This document shows positions 225 through 21,710 of a stretch of DNA of 42,293 nt, one piece after another (position 1 is the stretch's first letter; each line of letters starts with the position of its first letter). This stretch comes from Armatimonadota bacterium. GTDB lineage: Bacteria; Armatimonadota; Fimbriimonadia; Fimbriimonadales; GBS-DC. A program made the position numbers and the translations under genes. The notes beneath the pieces are model-generated. The model worked only from the letters and a program-made list of their open reading frames with translations. It did not search any database and was not told where the DNA came from. The stretch lies in NCBI GenBank assembly GCA_030550775.1, contig JAUQOS010000011.1:1-42293 (forward strand). Direction: 5' to 3'.

Positions 225-349
225 TCAACTATTGATTCAAACCCCTTAAGGTCGTTCCTGTGCAAACAAAGCCGATCTGCGTCGGCTATAGCCCGCGGAG
301 GCGGGCTTGGGTTGCACAGGAACGGCCTGAGGTTTGAATCAATGGTTGA
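225..349. repeat. Nested palindrome: long outer inverted repeat enclosing two hairpins
   Basis: Outer arms TCAACTATTGATTCAAACC (225-243) / GGTTTGAATCAATGGTTGA (331-349), and CGTTCCTGTGCAA (253-265) / TTGCACAGGAACG (312-324). Inner hairpins AGCCGA/TCGGCT (270-287) and AGCCCGC-GGAG-GCGGGCT (290-307). Confidence 0.88.
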
Positions 350-1680: not shown

Positions 1681-1733
1681 CTGCTTCTGCTGTTGATTGC
1701 AGTTGTAAAATCATTTGTGGTATCATGCTGCTA

Positions 1734-2135
1734 ATGCGCCGTTTGGGGTTGCTGGTGTGGGCGTTATGGTTGATGCTGGCGCCGTTGGGGGCGGCGTGGG
1801 CATACACTTGCATCTGCGCAGCGTCGCTCGCTGTCAAGTGCTGCGCGGAAGCCACTCCAGCGGCATGCTGCCAACCTGAAACCTTAGCTTGCGGCGTGGA
1901 GACAAACGTTCCATGCCCCAACTGCCCCGCCTGCACGCTGGAGGAGGCGAAACCTGCGCCAGCGGCGCAGCTCACGCGCTTCCTGCTGGAGTGGGCAGAT
2001 TGGGTGATAGACGCACCCGCCCCCAACCCCGCCCTTGAGGCAGGCACAGCAACCCAACCGCGCGGGCTACCCACTGTTCGGAACCACTCACCCCCACTCG
2101 TGGCGCACACGCCCCGTGCGCCGCCCCTGTGTTGA
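1734..2135 (+). CDS. Small Cys-rich secreted protein, possible metal-binding
   Basis: Signal-peptide-like MRRLGLLVWALWLMLAPLGAAWA, then CICA..CC..CC..C..CPNCPAC. GGTATCAT (1719-1726) lies 7 nt before the ATG. Confidence 0.6.
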   Translation: MRRLGLLVWALWLMLAPLGAAWAYTCICAASLAVKCCAEATPAACCQPETLACGVETNVPCPNCPACTLEEAKPAPAAQLTRFLLEWADWVIDAPAPNPALEAGTATQPRGLPTVRNHSPPLVAHTPRAPPLC

Positions 2136-2275
2136 GCCAATGCACGCGAGTTGCCCACAGCGCTCGCGACTTTCTCCATAGCTGACGCAGCAGCTCGTTG
2201 CTGCCGCGCACAAGCTTCCCAAAAAACCAAGCTGTGAGCAACCTGCTCACACACAGATTTTAGGCTCAACACAGG
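2126..2275 (+). promoter_or_regulatory. Intergenic structured RNA candidate linking upstream stop codon to downstream SD
   Basis: Perfect 13-bp inverted repeat CCTGTGTTGAGCC (2126-2138, contains stop TGA) / GGCTCAACACAGG (2263-2275, contains first AGG of the AGGAGGT SD). Internal hairpins GCAGCA/TGCTGC (2187-2204) and TGTGAGCA/TGCTCACA (2233-2251). Confidence 0.7.
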
Positions 2276-2284
2276 AGGTAAACA

Positions 2285-2968
2285 ATGCAATACGGCAAGG
2301 TTATCGCGAGTTTGGCGATTCTGTTCAGCGGGGTGCTTGTTTATGCGCAAGAAGGCTCGGGTGGTTGCCCCGCCTGCATTGTGATTCAATCGCAGCAGCG
2401 CAGCGATGTAGAGGTGGGCTTCGCTGAGCTAACCGTGCCTAAAGGCAAACTTAGCTGGTTCACCATTGGCTCGCCCACCTCAGAAGAGAACCGCTTCCGC
2501 TCCTTCATCAAGACGGGCATCACTAATCGGTTCGACATCGGTATCGGCTACTCGCAGTTCGGCAACCGCACCACCTTACAGACCACCTATCAGCTGGCGC
2601 GTCAAGACGAGGAGTTGCCGTTTAGCTTGCTGGTGGGCTACGGTTTCTCGTCTACCTATTCGCGCGTGCAGGAAGGCGGCTATCTGATGGGTGTGCGCAC
2701 CGAGGGCAACCTTTCGGTGATGGCAGGCTGGCAGCGACTCCGCAACGGACGCGACATCGGTTTTGTTGCTGCCAACTATCGGCTGGACAGCAACACCTCG
2801 CTGATGTTCTACTCGCATCAGGGCGTGATGCCTGGCGAGCCAACGCTGTACAACCTCGCGCTTGTGCGACGCATTGGCGCGTGGAATGTCGGCGTGTGGT
2901 GGTTCCACCCAACCGCCGAAAGCGATGTGGGCATCTCGCTGTCGCGCAGCTTCACGCTGGGGCGATAG
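2285..2968 (+). CDS. Exported beta-barrel-like outer membrane protein
   Basis: Signal peptide, CPAC motif after cleavage, alternating aromatic beta-strand pattern to the C-terminus; SD AGGAGGT 6 nt before ATG. Confidence 0.6.
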   Translation: MQYGKVIASLAILFSGVLVYAQEGSGGCPACIVIQSQQRSDVEVGFAELTVPKGKLSWFTIGSPTSEENRFRSFIKTGITNRFDIGIGYSQFGNRTTLQTTYQLARQDEELPFSLLVGYGFSSTYSRVQEGGYLMGVRTEGNLSVMAGWQRLRNGRDIGFVAANYRLDSNTSLMFYSHQGVMPGEPTLYNLALVRRIGAWNVGVWWFHPTAESDVGISLSRSFTLGR

Positions 2969-21406: not shown

Positions 21407-21505
21407 ACAAACGAACGGCTCCAACCGTTTTCGGGTGTGCCGATGTGCGTAGCGTCAGCGAGACGCCGACGCTCCGCTTAGCCCGCGCAGGCGGGCTTCG
21501 TTTGT
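21407..21505. repeat. Nested palindrome, AGCCCGC-GNAG-GCGGGCT family
   Basis: Outer ACAAACGAA (21407-21415) / TTCGTTTGT (21497-21505). Inner GCGTC-AGCGA-GACGC (21452-21466) and AGCCCGC-GCAG-GCGGGCT (21480-21497). Shares ACAGGAACGGC with the element at 225-349. Confidence 0.75.
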
Positions 21506-21641
21506 ACAGGAACGGCTTCTGCCGTATGTGGGTTTAGGCGATAGGTTCACCAGTGCGAAAACTTCAAACAACACTTCACATACACGCTCTGAGCCCCCTC
21601 GCTCTGCTCGGGGTGACGGGCTTCTCGGCTCCAACCAACCC

Positions 21642-21710
21642 TGTCATTCCGAGCCGCAGGCGAGGAATCCCTAAACCCTTTCTGTCATTCCGAGCCGCAG
21701 GCGAGGAATC
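21642..21710. repeat. Two direct copies of TGTCATTCCGAGCCGCAGGCGAGGAATC
   Basis: Identical 28-mers at 21642-21669 and 21683-21710. Confidence 0.9.

Follow-up and report, generated by a model that had tools for sequence, protein, structure and literature searches.

A RAPP-anchored helix over the Shine–Dalgarno sequence of the next gene: a candidate arrest-peptide switch in Fimbriimonadales

The gene 1–gene 2 locus

The window, i.e., the whole 42,293-nt stretch of DNA analysed here, belongs to the draft genome (G000) of a little-studied bacterium of the Fimbriimonadales, Armatimonadota; the closest relatives that bear a name are metagenome bins of this order. The window contains a small Cys-rich ORF, gene 1, followed on the same strand by gene 2, which codes for a predicted outer-membrane protein. 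The features of both genes and of the region between them are listed in Table 1. Relatives conserve ATG 1734, rather than TTG 1665 further upstream, as the start of gene 1. The N-terminus is hydrophobic and ends in AxA, as read from the alignment by inspection rather than by SignalP. Gene 1 carries about 14 Cys, and C26, C28, C36, C45, C46, C64 and C67 are invariant across 12 gene 1 orthologues, as are NHSPP and RAPP; the identity to the window gene 1 is 31–53% among orthologues. No Pfam or NCBIfam family matched gene 1. C64 and C67 lie about 60 residues before R128, so that the spacing of 45 residues between CxxC and RAPP in the copper sensors is not kept. In 11 of the 12 orthologues and in most of the paralogous loci described below, a box resembling a −10 element, usually GGTATAAT or GGTATACT, precedes the start codon by approximately 6–9 nt. 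Because this box stands so close to the start, the gene 1 mRNA, and the leader ORFs of the related loci, are probably leaderless.

Table 1. Features of the gene 1–gene 2 locus, in window coordinates
Feature	Position	Strand	Description and basis
Extended −10 promoter element TGGTATCAT	1718..1726	+	7 nt before the ATG of gene 1
Gene 1	1734..2135	+	133 aa, Cys-rich, signal-peptide-like N-terminus, NHSPP, C-terminal RAPPLC followed by the stop; candidate arrest peptide
RAPP codons CGT GCG CCG CCC	2115..2126	+	Stall predicted while CCG occupies the P site and CCC the A site; RAPP invariant, geometry from PMC10951233
5′ arm (anti-SD)	2123..2138	+	13-bp core at 2126–2138; folding, complementarity, comparison with relatives
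Loop, 124 nt	2139..2262	+	Local hairpins; neither sequence nor length conserved
Loop local hairpin 1	2145..2168	+	MFE
Loop local hairpin 2	2180..2216	+	MFE
Loop local hairpin 3, TGTGAGCA-ACC-TGCTCACA	2233..2251	+	MFE; arms 2233–2240/2244–2251
3′ arm with SD	2263..2279	+	AGGAGG at 2273–2278, A2276 bulged; folding, relatives
Gene 2	2285..2968	+	227 aa, signal peptide, predicted 12-stranded outer-membrane beta-barrel; pLDDT 76.6
CPAC motif of gene 2	2366..2377	+	In-frame UGA in place of the second Cys in 8 genomes from a different genus

An initial annotation of this DNA had pointed to a 13-bp complementarity that links the tail of gene 1 to the Shine–Dalgarno (SD) sequence of gene 2. This complementarity is exact: the arms at 2126–2138 (CCTGTGTTGAGCC) and 2263–2275 (GGCTCAACACAGG) are each 13 nt long, 100% complementary and separated by a spacer of 124 nt. 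On folding, the helix grows to 16 pairs, with 2123–2125 paired to 2277–2279 and A2276 bulged, and thus the AGGAGG SD of gene 2 (2273–2278) is buried inside the helix. The segment 2116–2290 folds with a minimum free energy (MFE) of −71.1 kcal/mol (z = −5.4, reached by 0 of 200 shuffles). Perfect 13-mer inverted pairs at a spacing of 60–350 nt are rare, with one other in the 42 kb window and none in 18 of 20 shuffles. Contiguous stop-to-SD pairing of at least 11 was found in 0 of 168 ordinary same-strand gene pairs, a background which rests on crude gene calling, excludes the gene 1–gene 2 pair and is drawn nearly entirely from a 1.2 Mb same-genus chromosome, with the remainder from the window. 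A general SD context as the source of the pairing was considered and ruled out, as ACACA (in the ACACAGGAGG context) precedes 0 of 227 SDs.

Competition between hairpins inside the loop, which the initial annotation had proposed, is not supported. The hairpin with the ACC loop is present in the MFE structure as described, and a GCAGC/GTTGC-type stem is found there as well. The stem CACAAGCTT/AAGCTGTG, which had been thought to compete with the ACC hairpin, forms only with a bulge (2209–2217/2229–2236), is absent from the MFE structure and has no counterpart in relatives. The hairpins within the loop are unrelated between genomes, and in several relatives unrelated hairpins occupy the place of hairpin 3.

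Conservation and covariation of the helix

Gene 2 orthologues are present in the genus and the family of the window. At 12 loci including the window, i.e., those where the contig is long enough upstream, gene 1 precedes gene 2 and its end is connected with the SD by a helix. The arm sequences change but still pair, as in L007 (TGTGTGTG/CACACACA), L009 (TGTGTCC/GGACACA), L012 (CTGAGTTGAG/CTCGACTCAG) and L008 (GAGTTTCG/CGAAACTC). Homologous loci that lacked both the pairing and compensatory changes had been named in advance as grounds for abandoning the switch proposed in the initial annotation; the homologues examined here show the pairing together with compensatory changes. Ten loci can be aligned without gaps, and here 88.8% of the cells are paired, compared with 29–49% in slid registers; the covariation score of 0.151 (vs. 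0.091) was reached by 1 of 500 shuffles. The cognate arms pair at −28.7 kcal/mol vs. −21.2 kcal/mol for non-cognate arms, a difference matched in 0 of 20,000 permutations; both the permutation and the shuffle controls ignore phylogeny. The intergenic length ranges from 68 to 329 nt in the orthologues and is 49 nt in one paralogue. In the loops of L005, L008 and L012, repeated palindromes of the GCTTGGACAAGAATGTCCAAGC and GCACGGACATTCTTGTCCGTGC types were observed, which look like a dispersed hairpin repeat multiplied within the switch loop.

A more distant genome, G070, from another family of the phylum, has the same gene order, the RAPP ending and a 9-bp helix, the energy of which shows no significance against shuffles (76 of 300). 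The helix starts at the proline codons of RAPP, and it is still there in L007, L009 and L015, where the stop codon comes 3–6 codons later. The codons for R and A, which are not part of the helix, show synonymous variation, and the residues that they encode are constant; therefore, selection acts on the peptide.

Recurrence of the design in paralogous loci

Related gene 1 sequences served as queries against the family, and the paralogues found in this way brought the loci with this design in related genomes to a total of 34, i.e., 13 gene 1–gene 2 loci and 21 paralogous loci of the same family, with four operon types downstream. Because the search expression itself contained RAPP, the frequency of RAPP in the paralogues is not independent evidence, whereas the helix is. 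The SD pairs either with the proline codons themselves or with codons no more than about 9 nt away. For 18 of the 21 paralogous loci, the covariation score of 0.224 (vs. 0.131) was reached by 0 of 500 shuffles. Cys-rich RAPP ORFs with anti-SD helices stand before genes for HMA-domain proteins, which adjoin a P-type ATPase or membrane-fusion gene (L074, L075, L084), and before OEP (TolC-like) and CusB-type HlyD efflux genes (L159, L160, L162–L166). Others precede DUF1559/prepilin-like genes (L079–L082, L085, L089–L091, L180–L182), and one locus of this prepilin-like type, L181 (G000:C40:13525-13893), is carried by G000 itself. One paralogue, L076, has the RAPP ending, but the SD nearest to it has no clear helix. 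L003/L004 and L161 were left out of account, as their contigs end. The candidate RAPP ORFs from a mechanical scan of the 1.2 Mb same-genus stretch include several which are apparently out of frame and were left uncounted.

Comparison with known arrest peptides

RAPP is an experimentally proven arrest motif (PMC12992588, PMC10951233). As in the RAPP-type arrest peptides, gene 1 is a small ORF that has RAPP near its C-terminus and a signal-like segment, and lies upstream of a candidate regulated gene. In ApdP, ApdA and ApcA, which are small secreted or membrane proteins with RAPP/RAPG close to the C-terminus, RAP occupies the P site and Pro (or Gly) the A site (PMC10951233); ApdA and ApcA are ribosome-specific. 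RAPP arrest peptides are known upstream of many genes. However, ApcA, ApdA and ApdP stand before secDF or yidC, and their discoverers reported that none of them has a predicted SD-hiding hairpin (PMC7897499). The SecM–secA pair of E. coli, used as a positive control, shows the arrangement seen here, its predicted helix likewise beginning within the A-site Pro codon of RAGP. SecM thus has in common with gene 1 an exported leader, an arrest motif near the C-terminus and a helix that hides the next SD with its 5′ arm beginning in the A-site Pro codon, whereas it differs in having RAGP with FxxxxWIxxxxG instead of RAPP, in monitoring secretion and controlling secA, and in not being Cys-rich.

Two copper-related systems provide a further comparison. 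In CutF–CutO of Rhodobacter capsulatus, both the Pro-rich tail and the Cu-binding motif of CutF are required to open an SD-hiding stem in a stalling-like process, although the Pro-rich tail alone is not a strong arrest sequence; CutF is needed in cis and belongs to a metal homeostasis operon, and a distance of 45 residues has been argued to suffice in it for reaching past the tunnel and translocon (PMC9973294). Gene 1 resembles it as a small exported Cys-containing protein with a Pro-rich C-terminus and an SD-hiding stem, and a metal-homeostasis operon headed by a RAPP ORF is found among the paralogues (HMA, P-type ATPase, CusB-like). In contrast, CutF falls in DUF2946, while gene 1 has about 14 Cys, an intergenic region of up to 329 nt, probably no untranslated leader and a different downstream gene. 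None of the 12 gene 1 family members matched DUF2946 (PF11162) at E up to 1; gene 1 is therefore a putative new sensor family with CutF-like logic. In CruR–bfrG of Bordetella, RAPP functions in the copper-sensing leader peptide CruR, and, as here, RAPP and a Cys pair occur in a uORF before a metal-related outer-membrane protein. However, CruR acts through Rho termination, is independent of a signal peptide and belongs to DUF2946 (PMC9426467). Taken by analogy, these comparisons suggest that the putative gene 1 switch is most like CutF–CutO, and also like SecM–secA.

Proposed mechanism and alternative explanations

We propose that gene 1 encodes a cis-acting, exported, Cys-rich arrest peptide that would control the translation of gene 2. 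When no ribosome is stalled, the coding end of gene 1 would pair with the gene 2 SD and keep gene 2 off. A ribosome translating gene 1 would stall at RAPP when its P site holds the first Pro codon and its A site the second, and, as the 5′ arm begins at these same proline codons, the stalled ribosome would sit on this arm, so that the helix could not form and the gene 2 SD would be free. A ribosome reaches about 15 nt past the start of the P-site codon. With CCG 2121–2123 in the P site, the ribosome is thus expected to cover the mRNA to approximately 2136–2139, which is the end of the 5′ arm. Modelled SD accessibility rises on opening from 0.17 to 0.24 in the window and, as a mean over 31 loci, from 0.09 to 0.36; the gain in the window is small because other weak pairings form. 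We consider it likely that a RAPP stall in gene 1 uncovers the gene 2 SD in this way, with the stalling, the control of gene 2 and the ligand all deduced from sequence comparison. This reading rests on the conservation and covariation of the helix, the invariance of RAPP, the anchoring of the helix at RAPP and the recurrence of the design before metal operons.

The initial annotation had interpreted the same helix as a coupling device opened by ribosomes that finish gene 1. The helix itself, its conservation and covariation, and gene 1 translation as the likely opener all agree with that description; its anchor, however, is the pair of RAPP proline codons and not the stop codon. Under ordinary translational coupling, any ribosome reaching the gene 1 stop would melt the helix with no programmed arrest, and gene 2 output would simply follow gene 1 translation. 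In the window, the stop codon is inside the 5′ arm, so that a terminating ribosome covers the arm too, and the modelled opening is approximately equal for a ribosome at RAPP and one at the stop. However, coupling does not account for the invariance of RAPP in all orthologues, given that its R and A codons are outside the helix, nor for a helix that remains at RAPP when the stop shifts by 3–6 codons (L007, L009, L015), and from the latter it follows that the likely opener is an arrested ribosome rather than an ordinary terminating one. Moreover, RAPP-like motifs are reportedly excluded from proteomes save in arrest peptides (PMC12992588). We thus regard ordinary coupling as an unlikely explanation.

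Transcription attenuation as proposed for CruR–bfrG, in which the position of the ribosome on gene 1 would decide intergenic termination by Rho or by a hairpin, fits the presence of RAPP, a 162-nt intergenic region and Rho in the CruR system (PMC9426467), next to intergenic lengths of 49–329 nt here. However, the conserved covarying element includes the gene 2 SD, which attenuation does not need, and CACACAGATTTT, 3′ of the 2233–2251 hairpin, is a poor terminator with no counterpart in relatives, making attenuation quite improbable. The initial annotation had also raised a riboswitch, and a metabolite or metal riboswitch made by the loop RNA would be in keeping with the complex loop structure and the strong fold. 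Yet the sequence, length and hairpins of the loop differ among close relatives, and no Rfam family matches here, which leaves a riboswitch with hardly any likelihood.

For the preferred reading, arrest at RAPP, the question of the signal arises. As in CutF–CutO, the state of the exported Cys-rich nascent chain, set by metal or thiol/redox stress, would probably prolong the stall or release it, and the Cys cluster about 60 residues before RAPP would extend past the exit tunnel and the translocon during the stall. A Cys-rich exported sensor combined with HMA/ATPase and CusB-like operons points to extracellular metal or thiol stress as the probable signal, and a metal, if sensed, may be a thiophilic one (Cu/Ag type). 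Beyond this locus, we lean slightly towards a Fimbriimonadales-wide class of leaderless, exported, Cys-rich RAPP arrest peptides, in which the two stall Pro codons are also the anti-SD of the next gene and one stalled ribosome both senses and switches; its targets would be genes for metal efflux, metal chaperones, prepilin-like proteins and CxxC/CxxU barrels, the last forming a beta-barrel selenoprotein family. The stall codons would then themselves be the anti-SD, and covariation links RAPP to an SD-sequestering helix at dozens of loci; searches of the open-access literature returned no title or abstract that states such a use of RAPP codons. This arrangement also offers a finding rule for any genome, i.e., CCN-CCY together with some 10 nt that pair with AGGAGG no more than approximately 330 nt downstream. 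It would bring Armatimonadota into the range of metal-type nascent-chain sensing, through an unrelated and far more Cys-rich sensor family, and tie this sensing to a candidate outer-membrane selenoprotein.

Gene 2 and its candidate selenoprotein homologues

The best PDB match of gene 2 is the KdgM porin 4fqe (E = 1e-6). In all eight genus g92 homologues of gene 2 that were found (L057–L064; family f19), an in-frame TGA replaces the second Cys of the CPAC motif, and the G070 homologue (L065) has the motif GCPL-TGA. SelB scores above the cut-off in all nine of these UGA-bearing genomes (the eight of g92 and G070), and tRNA-Sec is above the curated cut-off, with 72.9 bits in g92 and 66 bits in G070; weak sub-cut-off tRNA-Sec matches occur in nearly all genomes, controls included, and were not counted. 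Neither SelB nor tRNA-Sec was found in the tested genomes of the window genus g1. A SECIS-like element, CCAGCG-CGGGU-CGCUGG, lies about 20 nt past the UGA in the folded g92 members, with a stability no better than that of shuffles. The gene 2 homologues in the nine genomes thus form a candidate selenocysteine outer-membrane beta-barrel family, and searches of the open-access literature returned no title or abstract that describes an outer-membrane selenoprotein of this kind. In genus g92, gene 1 was not seen upstream of the UGA-bearing barrel, the gene for which appears to stand alone. In L009 (G010, 1294-1500), gene 2 has about 55 extra N-terminal residues, an apparent insertion between the start codon and the signal peptide.

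Other observations in the window

A second perfect inverted repeat of at least 13 nt lies at window 231–343, with arms at 231 and 331, upstream of an oxidoreductase gene. No CRISPR array was seen around window 21479–21710, where a single borderline Rfam match to CRISPR-DR28 was found (21479–21502, 35.7 vs. 35 bits). Near this match, a 29-nt direct repeat pair (CTGTCATTCCGAGCCGCAGGCGAGGAATC) is located within 21641–21710.
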